The notes under the pieces are model-generated. The model was not told the origin of the DNA. It made no database searches and saw only the letters and a program-made list of their open reading frames with translations. Below, piece after piece: positions 2,570 to 8,015 of a stretch of 8,015 nucleotides of DNA. This DNA comes from a bacterium (GTDB lineage Bacteria; Blakebacterota; Blakebacteria; Blakebacterales; Blakebacteraceae): positions 1 through 8,015 of the forward strand of contig JALGWK010000245.1 of the NCBI GenBank assembly GCA_025774205.1, read 5' to 3'. Position numbers and translations under genes: made by a program. Numbering within the stretch: position 1 is the stretch's first letter; the number at the start of each line of letters is the position of its first letter.

Positions 2570-4067
2570 ATGGGCGCGCAGAAGGGCTTCGACAACGATC
2601 GGTATGTAGAGGAACAGTCAGCAGAGATTCTCAAGAGGGTGGATAAGTATAACAACCGGCTCTACCTCGAGTTCGGCGGCAAGCTGCTCTTCGATTACCA
2701 CGCCGCCCGGGTGCTTCCCGGATATGATCCCAACGTCAAGATCAGACTGCTCCAGAATCTGAAGGAGCAGGTGGATCTGGCCGACTTCGGGATCACCTAC
2801 GAGTCGGACGCCCTGAAGCTGATCGATGATATCCGGGACCGGGGGATCGATGTCCTGGGGGTGGTGATCACCCGCTTCAGGGACCAGCCCTCCGCCCAGG
2901 TATTCCGGAACAAACTTGAACGTCGCGACATCGCAGTCTATACGCACGCCTTCACGAAAGGCTATCCGACCGATATCGATCTGATCGTCAGCGATCAGGG
3001 ATACGGCGCCAACTCCTATATTGAATCGGAGAAACCGCTGGTAGTGATAACCGGTCCGGGGCCGAGTGATAACCGGTCCGGGGCCGGGAAGCGGCAAACT
3101 CGCCACCTGTCTCTCCCAGCTCTATCACGATCACCGGAGCGGCACCCTGAAGTCGGGCTATGCCAAGTTCGAGACCTTTCCGATCTGGAACCTGCCTCTC
3201 AAACACCCGGTGAACATCGCCTATGAGGCGGCCACGGCCGACCTGAGGGATTTCAATCTCATCGATCCCTTCCACCTGGAGGCGTATGGGGAACAGGCGG
3301 TCAACTACAACCGGGACGTGGACGCCTTCCCGCTCCTGCAGCGCATCCTTGAAAAGATCACCGGAGAAGAATCGGTCTACCAGTCACCGACCGACATGGG
3401 CGTCAACCGGGCCGGCTTCGCCATCATCGATGATGAGGTAACCCACGCGGCCGCGAAGCAGGAACTGATCCGGAGGTTCTTCCGGTATCAGTGCGAATAC
3501 GTCCTGGGATTCGTCGACCAGGAAACGGTGAACCGGGCCGAACTGCTGTTGAAGGACAACCATCTCGATCCCGAGGATCGTCCGGTCGTGGAGCCGGCGC
3601 GATCGGCTGCCGGGGAGGCGGAAAAACTGAATAAGGGTGATGAGGGTGTCTTCTGCGGGGCCGCCATCGAGTTGAGAGATGGCACCATGATCACCGGGAA
3701 CAACTCACCACTGCTGCACGCGGCCTCCAGCGTGGTGATCCATGCCATCAAACACCTGGCCGGGATATCGGGCGAAGTCAAGCTTCTGCCTGCGCCGGTC
3801 ATCGAGTCGGTGACCAGGATGAAGACCGGTATCCTGAACGAGAAAAGTGTGAGTCTCGATCTGGAAGAGGTCCTGATCGCGCTGAGCGTCAGCTCCAGCA
3901 CCAATCCGGCGACTCAGCAGGCCATGGAAAAACTGAATGAACTGCGGGGTTGTGAGGCGCATATGACGCACATCCCCCGACCGGGGGATGAGGCGGGCCT
4001 CAGGAGCCTTGGTATCAACCTCACCAGCGATCCGAACTTCTCTACCAGGGATCTCTTCATTTCCTGA
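2570..4067 (+). pseudogene. UPF0371/DUF1846 family gene, frameshifted by a 22-bp tandem duplication
   Basis: Two consecutive frames together encode a full DUF1846 (UPF0371) protein. The first gives MGAQKGFDNDRY through LYLEFGGK (31-38), FDYHAARVLPGYDP (41-54), FRNKLERR and GYPTDIDLIVSDQGYGAN to VVITGPGP (158-165). The second resumes at ITGPGPGSGK and runs through AKFETFPIWNLPLKHPVN, DPFHLEAYG, VNYNRD and SPTDMGVNRAGF to the normal C-terminus ending at 4067. The shift comes from an exact 22-bp tandem repeat at 3043-3064 and 3065-3086. Removing one copy restores a 491-residue protein, close to the usual length of about 500. As written, the first frame runs into unrelated sequence and stops after 218 residues. 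Compared with family members recalled from memory, about 15 residues are also missing near residue 69, between LKEQV and DFGITY. The family's biochemical role is not established. The frameshift could be real or an assembly error. Confidence 0.88.
3043..3086. repeat. Exact 22-bp tandem duplication (two copies)
   Basis: The 22-bp unit beginning AGTGATAACCGG occurs twice without a gap, at 3043-3064 and 3065-3086, with no mismatch. It does not extend on either side (T versus G on the left, A versus G on the right). The unit length is one more than a multiple of three, so the second copy shifts the UPF0371 reading frame exactly within the codons for its GPGPGSGK loop. Confidence 0.97.
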
Positions 4068-6055: not shown

Positions 6056-6116
6056 TGGAACGGAGTAGTGAGATCTGCCAATCGTTCATCATTCAATTAT
6101 GGACCGGAGCAGGTGG

Positions 6117-6570
6117 ATGAAATGTGCGTCGACAGTTGCACGATTTTCTCTCGTCCTCATCCTTTTTGGGACAGGTTGCCTGTCTGTTGAGGCTCAGGAG
6201 ATGAATACCGAGGAATTGAAGGTGGGTGAAGTCGCCCCCGATTTCCGGATTCCGAGCACCGTGCCGGTGCCGGCGGATGGTTCAACAGTGAGTGTGAGTG
6301 CCCTGGTCGAAGAGGGAGAAGTTTCTGAGCCTCAACGCGACCGTTGTGACAGTGAGCCTGGACAGCCTGGAGACCCTGCGGGCCTTCGGTGAAAGTGTCG
6401 GCGCCGGGTATCCGATGGGCAGCGACCGGGAGAAGAGGGAAGCCGTCACGGCCTACCGGGTGCCTGTTTCCAGGGGAGAGTACGCTCAGCGCAGCCTTTT
6501 CATTGTCGATCGGAAGGGGATCCTCAGGTATGTGAATTACAGCTATCAGATCACTGGTATGACTATTTAG
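6117..6570 (+). pseudogene. Exported AhpC/TSA-type redoxin, broken: catalytic segment lost and frame shifted
   Basis: The start is ATG at 6117, because GGAG lies seven bases upstream. The ATG at 6099 in the same frame has no ribosome site. The first frame gives a signal peptide (MKCASTVARFSLVLILFGTGCLSVEA|Q) and the redoxin N-terminus GEVAPDFRIPSTV and SVSALVEEG, then loses similarity near 6315 and stops at 6392. The +1 frame resumes at REKFLSLNATVVTVSLDS and runs through AYRVP, SLFIVDRKGILRYVNYSYQ to a stop at 6570. In intact relatives roughly 25 residues with the peroxidatic or CxxC cysteines lie between these parts, and they are absent here. An internal out-of-frame deletion near 6312-6318 explains this. 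The C-terminal helix also seems to be missing. The product could not work as a peroxidase. It is divergent from the M14 gene. Confidence 0.78.
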
Positions 6571-6594
6571 GCGTCCTAATAACGCCTTATTTAC
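6570..6594 (+). terminator. Weak hairpin with T-rich tail after the broken redoxin gene
   Basis: GGCGT (6570-6574) pairs with ACGCC (6582-6586) around a seven-base loop, followed by TTATTT. The stem is only five pairs and overlaps the redoxin stop codon. It may be a weak terminator. Confidence 0.3.
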
Positions 6595-6634
6595 CAATGA
6601 TTTAGGTCGCAATTTGTTACAGATACGCATGCGC

Positions 6635-6662
6635 TTGACACCGGTCTCCCGGATTCTATCTT
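6635..6662 (+). promoter_or_regulatory. Sigma-70-type promoter inside the spacer
   Basis: A perfect TTGACA (6635-6640) is followed after 16 bases by TATCTT (6657-6662), which matches the -10 consensus at four of six positions. Transcription would begin near 6669. The next complete element downstream is the terminator at 6926-6955, so it would drive a short transcript of about 285 bases rather than aprBA. Confidence 0.45.
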
Positions 6663-6663
6663 A

Positions 6664-6683
6664 TCACAGGCAGTAAACTGTGA
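6664..6683. promoter_or_regulatory. Inverted repeat at the predicted transcription start, possible operator
   Basis: TCACAG (6664-6669) and CTGTGA (6678-6683) form a perfect six-base inverted repeat with an eight-base centre. It lies directly after the -10 box of the spacer promoter, covering the expected start site. It could be a repressor site or a short hairpin at the 5' end of the RNA, which would be followed by a run of seven A. Confidence 0.35.
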
Positions 6684-6708
6684 AAAAAATCTCGAATAGC
6701 TCTTACAG

Positions 6709-6743
6709 CTCTCCGGAAGGTAGAAATACCGGTTTCCAGAGAG
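6709..6743 (+). other. Thirteen-pair hairpin with GAAA (GNRA) tetraloop
   Basis: CTCTC (6709-6713) pairs with GAGAG (6739-6743), GGAA (6715-6718) with TTCC (6734-6737), and GGTA (6719-6722) with TACC (6727-6730), closing a GAAA loop at 6723-6726. One C/A mismatch and a three-base bulge (GGT, 6731-6733) interrupt the stem. GNRA loops with bulged stems are common in structured RNAs, so this is more likely an RNA element than a chance repeat. Confidence 0.5.
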
Positions 6744-6780
6744 TCAATTGACAGGCAAATCCGAGATAGAGACATCATCG

Positions 6781-6927
6781 ATGAATTGCAACCCGGACGT
6801 GGAAAGCCAGGTCAATGACGACACCTCTGCACTTCCGATTCCTGTCGCCGACAGCAACGGAAGGGTTGAGTATGTCAGCAGTTATGCCGCCTGGTACAGC
6901 CCCGGGTGCAGGTGGAGGATGGAATAG
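6781..6927 (+). CDS. Possible small ORF of 48 residues, perhaps a redoxin remnant
   Basis: ATG at 6781 opens a 48-codon frame ending in TAG at 6925-6927, just inside the terminator stem. No strong ribosome binding site precedes it. A TTG at 6748 in the same frame is an alternative start. The middle reads ALPIPVADSNGRVEYVSS and the end CRWRME. This vaguely recalls the C-terminal strands of AhpC/TSA redoxins (LP-x-P, D-x-NG-x-V, aromatic strand, R-R-x-E-P). Since a broken redoxin gene lies just upstream, it may be a leftover of a second or duplicated redoxin. The resemblance is weak and the ORF may be chance. Confidence 0.25.
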   Translation: MNCNPDVESQVNDDTSALPIPVADSNGRVEYVSSYAAWYSPGCRWRME

Positions 6928-6955
6928 CGCCGCGTAGACACCGCGGCGTTTTCTG
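6926..6955 (+). terminator. Rho-independent terminator upstream of aprB
   Basis: CGCCGCG (6928-6934) pairs with CGCGGCG (6942-6948) around a seven-base loop. Two more pairs (A-T and a G-T wobble) extend the base, and TTTTCTGTTT follows. The GC-rich stem plus T-tract is a good intrinsic terminator on the plus strand. It would stop readthrough from the spacer into aprBA. Confidence 0.75.
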
Positions 6956-7053
6956 TTTCACCCGTCGGGGCCCAGCTGCTTCGAGGGTGGCGATGATCAC
7001 ACAAGGAGTCCGTACAAGACAGGACACGTAAGGAAGGACATTTTTTACCAAGC

Positions 7054-7073
7054 CTTGTGAAATAAATCACAAG
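7054..7073. promoter_or_regulatory. Perfect 20-bp palindrome upstream of aprB: Rex-like or HcpR/CRP-FNR-like operator
   Basis: CTTGTGA (7054-7060) and TCACAAG (7067-7073) form a perfect inverted repeat around AATAAA. The inner 18 bases match the Rex operator pattern TTGTGAA-N4-TTCACAA at 13 of 14 fixed positions. They also match the CRP/FNR-type pattern TGTGA-N6-TCACA exactly, which as I recall is close to the HcpR sites proposed for Desulfovibrio sulfate-reduction genes. The site ends 47 bp before the aprB ATG and may overlap an extended -10 element (TG-A-AATAAA). A transcription factor site is likely. Which factor binds, and whether it activates or represses, cannot be told. Confidence 0.7.
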
Positions 7074-7120
7074 CAAGGTTCCCGGAAGGTGCCCGTCCAG
7101 GGCGGAAAGGAAGTCCGATC

Positions 7121-7588
7121 ATGCCGAGTTTCGTGATTCCGGACAAATGTGATGGCTGCAAGGCTCTCGACAAGACGGCCTGCCAGTACATTTGCCCCAA
7201 CGATCTCATGGTCCTGAACAAGGAAACTGAAAAGGCCTTCAATCAGGATCCACAGATGTGCTGGGAATGCTACAGCTGCGTGAAGATCTGTCCCACCCAG
7301 GCGGTCGAAGTCCGTGGTTACCAGGACTTCGTCCCGATGGGGGCGAGCGTCACGGCGCTGCGTTCCTCCGAGGACATCATGTGGACCGTTCAGTTCCGTG
7401 ACAAAGAGATCAGGCCGAAGCGCTTCAAGTTCCCCATCCGTCGTGGTGTGGAAGAAGGCAAGGCGCAGCCGTTCGATCATTACCCGACCGGTGACGACGA
7501 CATCAAGAGTACGACCCTGATGACTGAGCCTGAAGGCATCAACACCGAGAAGGGTCCGGTCAAATTCGACAAGCTCCCGACTCTCTAG
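7121..7588 (+). CDS. aprB: Adenylylsulfate (APS) reductase beta subunit
   Basis: This 155-residue protein is the iron-sulfur subunit of dissimilatory APS reductase, which interconverts APS and sulfite plus AMP in the cytoplasm together with AprA. Two [4Fe-4S] sites are clear: C10-x2-C13-x7-C21-x3-C25, and C47-x2-C50-x2-C53-x3-C57. W48, between M46-C47 and E49-C50, is at the position of the tryptophan known from the Archaeoglobus structure to lie between the FAD and the nearer cluster. SEDIMWTVQFRD (83-94) and KRFKFPIRR (100-108) form the conserved beta sheet that precedes the tail wrapping around AprA. The length is normal. AAGGAAG seven bases before the ATG is a good ribosome site. The gene is followed by aprA after 62 bp. 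No sat gene lies upstream in this window. Confidence 0.97.
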   Translation: MPSFVIPDKCDGCKALDKTACQYICPNDLMVLNKETEKAFNQDPQMCWECYSCVKICPTQAVEVRGYQDFVPMGASVTALRSSEDIMWTVQFRDKEIRPKRFKFPIRRGVEEGKAQPFDHYPTGDDDIKSTTLMTEPEGINTEKGPVKFDKLPTL

Positions 7589-7650: not shown

Positions 7651-8015
7651 ATGGCGGATTTCGAGACTGTTGTAGTCGAGACCGACCTGCTGATCTGCGG
7701 AGGCGGTATGGCCGCTTGCGGTGCCGCTGTAGAGGCGTCCTATTGGGCCAGGCAGCACGGTCTCAAGGTCACGGTAGTTGACAAGGCCGCGATGGACCGT
7801 TCCGGCGCCGTCGCGATGGGACTCTCGGCCATCAACCAGTACGTCGACCTGAACAGCGGTAACAACACGCTGAAGGATTATTGTGATTACGTCCGCAACG
7901 ACCTGATGGGGATCACCCGTGAGGACGTTGTGGTCAACATCGCGCGTCACGTAGACAACACCGTCCACCTTTTTGAAAAGTGGGGACTGCCGATCTGGAC
8001 GGACGACGAAGGCAA
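7651..8015 (+). CDS. aprA: Adenylylsulfate (APS) reductase alpha subunit, N-terminal part (cut by window edge)
   Basis: The first 121 residues of the flavoprotein subunit are present, out of a usual total of about 620-690. After a short lead, DLLICGGGMAACGAA (12-26) is the FAD-binding beta-alpha-beta glycine motif. D44 at the end of strand two (VTVVDKA) should bind the FAD ribose. RSGAVAMGLSAINQYV (50-65) is the strongly conserved flavin-contacting segment of AprA, and TREDVVVNIARHV (89-101) follows. AAGGAG lies ten bases before the ATG. With aprB it forms the standard aprBA pair, in which AprA binds APS and the N5 of FAD attacks its sulfur. Electrons arrive through AprB from the Qmo complex in sulfate reducers, but the genes downstream are not visible here. 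Confidence 0.97.
   Translation, partial: MADFETVVVETDLLICGGGMAACGAAVEASYWARQHGLKVTVVDKAAMDRSGAVAMGLSAINQYVDLNSGNNTLKDYCDYVRNDLMGITREDVVVNIARHVDNTVHLFEKWGLPIWTDDEG

Follow-up and report, generated by a model that had tools for sequence, protein, structure and literature searches.

Gene content and host of the locus

The window, meaning the whole stretch of 8,015 nucleotides analysed here, is contig C26 of a MAG (G000; 3.09 Mb, 527 contigs, 86% complete) and closes with genes for the two subunits of APS reductase (Table 1). Its end shares an exact 114-bp overlap with contig C11 (locus L184), on which the rest of aprA, a gene for a 310-aa protein, qmoA, qmoB, qmoC and sat follow on the same strand in a close-packed order; a gap of about 1 kb separates these genes from a 183-aa gene and dsrM, which lie beyond. 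The apr, qmo and sat genes are predicted to form a single transcript, and the operators of the window precede this sulfate-to-sulfite module. When aprA is joined across the overlap, a stop is reached after 208 codons and the gene goes on in another frame, reflecting either a frameshift or an assembly error. Both sat and dsrA are present in the genome. Two qmoABC-like sets were found, one in the apr-sat operon (L184, 4050-8924) and the other on contig C15 (L119, 633-5527), the latter being divergent from a histidine kinase/response regulator pair and furnished with its own operator.

In the collection, relatives of this genome share either its family or nothing narrower than its domain. At 83-90% identity, the nearest AprB proteins belong to MAGs labelled mainly Gemmatimonadota and Planctomycetota, besides Latescibacterota and a few others. 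Neither observation supports a host among the Desulfobacterota, the group from which an earlier sequence-only reading of this DNA took its precedents.

Table 1. Coordinates of the features discussed, in the window and elsewhere in the genome
Feature	Position	Strand	Remarks
Predicted sigma-70-type promoter, candidate for the apr operon	6635-6662	+	TTGACA-16-TATCTT
Upstream operator, Rex2-type	6678-6695	+	CTGTGAAAAAAATCTCGA; 24.8 bits with the Rex2 matrix
Terminator-like hairpin between predicted promoter and aprB	6926-6950	+	0.6 expected from shuffles
Operator upstream of aprB	7055-7072	.	TTGTGAAATAAATCACAA
aprB, APS reductase beta subunit	7121-7588	+	TIGR02060, 184 bits, cut-off 136
aprA, 5' part	7651-8015	+	TIGR02061; continues in contig C11
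YGTGA-W6-TCWCR sites of the genome	window 6679, 7056; second qmoA (C15); rex2 promoter; mnhE (C106)		

Operators and promoter upstream of aprB

Positions 7054-7073, CTTGTGAAATAAATCACAAG, had been read as a perfect 20-bp palindrome directly upstream of aprBA, fitting the Rex box as well as a CRP/FNR-like pattern, and this observation is partly confirmed. Compared with its own reverse complement, the segment agrees at only 16 of 20 positions, since the arms CTTGTGA/TCACAAG are perfect and two pairs within the centre AATAAA are mismatched. The remaining points stood up to recounting: the operator ends 48 bp short of the aprB start, it agrees with the Rex box TTGTGAANNNNTTCACAA at 13 of 14 positions, which places it by sequence among the close variants of that box, and it carries TTGTGA-N6-TCACAA, the signature of HcpR/CRP-FNR regulon sites, exactly (12/12). 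A whole-genome scan of the 3.09-Mb assembly returned this site as the only exact copy of TTGTGA-N6-TCACAA, of which about 0.06 per genome would be expected by chance at 60% GC. As the sole exact genomic match, situated 48 bp before aprB, it is more than a chance match.

The search next to 7055 gave no good promoter, and the only strong match in 6550-7150 is the promoter listed in Table 1 (10/12 positions; shuffles expect 0.3). The operator at 6678-6695, a related second site that had been overlooked, starts 43 bp past the start of the -35 box of this promoter, the corresponding distance in relatives being 42-44 bp. It agrees with the canonical Rex box at only 10 of 14 positions and matches the Rex2-type consensus. 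No clear operator copy was seen in the window upstream of the promoter. Together with its flanks, the terminator-like hairpin folds at -22.5 kcal/mol. A 48-aa ORF (6781-6927) ends at the foot of the hairpin and may represent a leader, a small gene or chance; as a gene it was set aside, having neither a Pfam match, nor a convincing relative among the fetched loci, nor a clear ribosome-binding site. An Rfam search of 6400-7200 returned no element.

Further sites in the genome and its relatives

The pattern used for genome scans, YGTGA-W6-TCWCR, was drawn from sites already seen and its counts are descriptive. It occurs at five distinct places in this genome, and the reversed control pattern was found 0 times in 30 genomes. 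A sixth site, with one G in the spacer, lies before a dsrMK-like operon. The operator of the second qmoA is located between TTGACA and CAGAAT, overlapping the promoter. The further copies that the sequence-only reading suggested looking for were encountered before the second qmoA, the dsrMK-like operon and mnhE, and none was found before sat or dsrA in this genome; the lack of a site before sat is explained by the position of this gene inside the apr operon. Other sites with 0-1 mismatch lie on contigs C304, C370, C439 and C270, on the last of these where an argS-like gene ends.

In the congener G001, the sites before rex2, the dsrMK-like operon and mnhE recur, that of mnhE at an identical distance of 151 bp. 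The complete genome G078, which is labelled Gemmatimonadota, has such sites ahead of rex1, two rex2 genes, aprB and atpA. Additional sites stand before an H+-pyrophosphatase gene in G090 and, in G093/G094, before an hdrC/qmoC-like gene and one that by inspection looks tusA-like, and some sites in G083, G087 and G090 are inside genes or beside unrelated ones. A looser pattern with any spacer gave many scattered matches, some of them intragenic, and was unused as evidence. TGTGA-W6-TCACA sites were also observed in a Zixibacteria genome (G097, CP070766; L213-L219), some before genes reading as nuoA/nuoB and aldehyde dehydrogenase; neither a Rex nor a CRP protein scored over the cut-off in this record, part of which reads N.

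Candidate regulators

Two Rex proteins were identified in the genome by profile search (PF06971, 72 and 46.5 bits, cut-off 27). The gene rex1 is located after gyrA on contig C515, and rex2 is on contig C416 beside a histidine kinase/response regulator pair, HmcF/TmcB-like and DsrK-like operons and genes reading, by inspection, as siroheme synthesis. Rex2 has the winged-helix and NAD-binding domains of the Rex family (NF003994, 200.5 bits, cut-off 130), the solved structures nearest to it are Rex, and both the GxGxxG NAD(H) motif and the QVRKD recognition helix are invariant columns in Rex2.

In this genome and the congener G001 (MAGs 82-86% complete), no CRP/FNR-type HTH exceeded the Pfam cut-off, and the same holds for G083, G093 and G094, which also have such sites. 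Of two weak matches in G000, one is MntR-like and the other is of the Rrf2 type. The same search family was matched in 14 of 14 control genomes. The protein that would place 7055 in an HcpR/CRP-FNR regulon was accordingly not detected in this 86% complete MAG, and with two Rex proteins present, Rex is favoured over HcpR. Of the choice between Rex and HcpR posed by the sequence-only reading, a redox-type Rex operator for aprBA is supported, and the rival HcpR/CRP-FNR is unsupported in these MAGs of 82-86% completeness. That reading would have been abandoned if both regulator types were absent, or if no further copies stood before sulfur or energy genes; neither applies to Rex, as rex genes are present and further sites precede such genes. 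What ambiguity is left at 7055 concerns the canonical Rex1 versus the divergent Rex2.

The Rex2 clade and its linkage to aprBA

Of the 14 nearest loci that include sequence upstream of aprB, 10 have rex2 immediately ahead of aprB on the same strand (partial in one case), and the Rex2 proteins form one clade with a support of 100/100. Among 200 genomes from the phylum of G078 (Gemmatimonadota), four scored high for Rex2 (329-379 bits) and the rest reached at most 290 bits, the divide of 300 bits being chosen once the score gap was visible. All four Rex2 genomes carry aprB (one split over two contigs) in comparison with 1 of 76 others, the control being 76 of the 196 Gemmatimonadota genomes without Rex2, with p = 3e-6 by a calculation that ignores shared ancestry. 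In two of the four, G306 and G297, rex2 is likewise just upstream of aprB. A Rex nearer Rex1 than Rex2, on a very long branch, ends just before aprB in a Latescibacterota MAG (L048:5342-5995) and may be a second Rex type linked to aprBA. The question of HcpR or Rex is an old one; the linkage of a Rex2 clade to aprBA and its operator pattern are new as far as the searched literature shows, and earlier reports are possible.

DNA specificity and promoter geometry

In Thermotoga maritima Rex, R48/K49 are reported to read G5, G7 and A8, and R60/G61 to touch T4/T3 in the minor groove (PMC8836258). Rex2 keeps R48/K49, and instead of the wing R60-G61 it has G-R in nearly all members (one S-R, one G-H). 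Since R60 itself is described as not highly conserved across the family (PMC8836258), the G-R wing is a variant that does not exclude Rex2 from the Rex family. The wing of Rex1 is canonical. On the DNA side, the base before GTGA is C instead of T in 33 of 36 operators from the compared apr and rex2 regions. Both operator types coexist in G078, where the site at rex1 fits the canonical box perfectly and those at rex2 and aprB are of the CGTGA/TCTC kind. The change in the wing may have caused the change in the operator base.

The apr and rex2 regions of several genomes share a common geometry around a TTGACN-16/17 promoter: relative to the start of its -35 box, one operator begins 24-25 bp upstream and a second copy 42-44 bp downstream. 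The geometry suits repression. Activation is also conceivable, given that the upstream copies keep a fixed orientation in several genomes.

Within the genome under study, the fit to the canonical box is 13/14 for 7055, 12/14 for the second qmoA and 10-11/14 for the other sites. The sites of rex2, the dsrMK-like operon and mnhE carry a CGTGA half, and TTGTGA halves occur at the second qmoA and at 7055. The Rex2 matrix assigned 24.8 bits to 6678, 19.8 bits to 7055 and 16.8 bits to the rex2 site, and its separation is less than clean, since the genome's own rex2 site attains only 16.8 bits.

Proposed regulation of the apr-qmo-sat operon

With good though incomplete confidence, 7055-7072 is regarded as one of two operators, together with 6678-6695, of a Rex-family NADH-responsive repressor predicted to control aprBA-qmoABC-sat in an uncultured sulfate reducer. 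While NAD+ prevails, Rex dimers would occupy operators beside or inside the promoter and block transcription; upon a rise of NADH, Rex would be released and the sulfate-activation module made. Probable further members of the regulon are rex2, the second qmoABC set, the dsrMK-like electron-transfer operon and a gene for a cation/H+ antiporter. The sites and their positions, the two rex genes, the rex2-aprBA linkage and the operator-promoter spacing are derived from sequence; from these we infer binding and repression by Rex, and NADH as the signal is carried over from established Rex biology. Several points weigh against this reading: a CRP/FNR gene could lie in the missing part of the MAG, the hairpin separates the predicted promoter from aprB, 7055 has no good promoter match beside it, G097 has similar sites with neither regulator detected in its partly N record, and the search pattern and the 300-bit divide were derived from the data they describe.

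Rex2 appears the likelier regulator, at least at 6678, and canonical Rex1 may act at 7055 as well or instead. It is about an even bet that Rex2 represents a separate branch of Rex dedicated to sulfate respiration, with a DNA specificity shifted by the paired changes from R60-G61 to G-R in the wing and from T to C before GTGA, which would move with aprBA between uncultured lineages and control apr and its own gene via operator sets at fixed spacings (~31 and 67 bp) around the promoter.

The most serious competitor, tentative but deserving of weight, is that Rex1 alone serves 7055 and the second qmoA, Rex2 being confined to the CGTGA-type sites of rex2, the dsrMK-like operon, mnhE and 6678. The canonical resemblance of the TTGTGA halves at these two sites, which also counts against Rex2 at 7055, agrees with the canonical wing of Rex1 and with the perfect canonical box before rex1 in G078. 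Against it, the Rex2 matrix scores 7055 higher than this genome's own rex2 site, the linkage to aprBA belongs to rex2 rather than rex1, and two Rex proteins would be needed for one operon.

Activation by Rex2 from the same sites is unlikely. It would account for the distance and orientation of the upstream copy, fixed in several genomes at 6-7 bp before the -35 box, but the window has no clear copy there, the second copies just past the transcription start and the promoter-overlapping operator of the second qmoA suit repression, and Rex is known as a repressor (PMC8836258).

More doubtful still is control of aprBA through 7055 by a CRP/FNR-type protein, be it HcpR or another, which was the original proposal for Desulfovibrio. 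There, Rodionov et al. 2004 (PMC545781) described TTGTGA-N6-TCACAA, the very signal found here, before sat and apsAB, assigned it to HcpR and predicted repression from the overlap of sites and promoters, and HcpR1 is described as sharing its binding sites with Rex (PMC5701242). This candidate was set aside as the likely factor, since no CRP/FNR HTH scored over the cut-off in the incomplete MAGs G000 and G001 or in G083, G093 and G094, and the family was detected in every control genome. A functionless chance inverted repeat is highly improbable: the loose pattern does have GC-rich variants in scattered places of the genome, some within genes, but only ~0.06 exact matches are expected, AT-centred sites precede sulfur and energy genes, and the reversed control gave none.

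Comparison with known systems

The preferred reading, a Rex-family repressor, has its closest precedent in D. vulgaris Rex (DVU_0916), an NADH-regulated repressor of sat (Christensen et al. 2014, cited in PMC11451228). Both involve a Rex-family regulator, a TTGTGA-type box, a sulfate-activation target and, here by prediction, NADH-relieved repression. Different from D. vulgaris, the boxes in this case precede an apr-qmo-sat operon, the lineage is outside the Desulfobacterota, and a divergent second Rex clade is linked to aprBA. The Desulfovibrio HcpR regulon likewise has TTGTGA-N6-TCACAA before the APS reductase genes, in contrast to which G000 has no CRP/FNR-type protein over the cut-off. With canonical Rex from S. 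aureus, whose box is TTGTGAAW4TTCACAA (PMC2883068), and from T. maritima, Rex2 shares the R-K pair reading G..GA and the GxGxxG motif, differing in the G-R wing and in the C for T before GTGA of most operators.

Most work on how sulfate respiration is controlled comes from Desulfovibrio, in which the same box was at first ascribed to HcpR and afterwards, in the case of sat, to Rex. With a CRP/FNR candidate apparently lacking here, the box can be assigned to Rex with less ambiguity. Through a Rex clade linked to aprBA, the initial steps of sulfate respiration would be coupled to the NADH/NAD+ ratio in lineages known mostly from metagenomes, and the adjacency of rex2 and aprBA could be used as a genomic marker. 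The concerted change of protein wing and operator offers a testable case of specificity change within Rex.

Other features of the window

Just upstream of the apr region, an AhpC/TSA-type redoxin gene is apparently broken into ORFs 6099-6392 and 6298-6570 in different frames; a Pfam match, beginning at profile position 53, was obtained for the latter ORF only. A DUF1846 gene is split into ORFs 2570-3226 and 3066-4067, and the frame break coincides with a perfect 22-bp tandem duplication, AGTGATAACCGGTCCGGGGCCG, at 3043-3086, representing either a real mutation or an assembly error.
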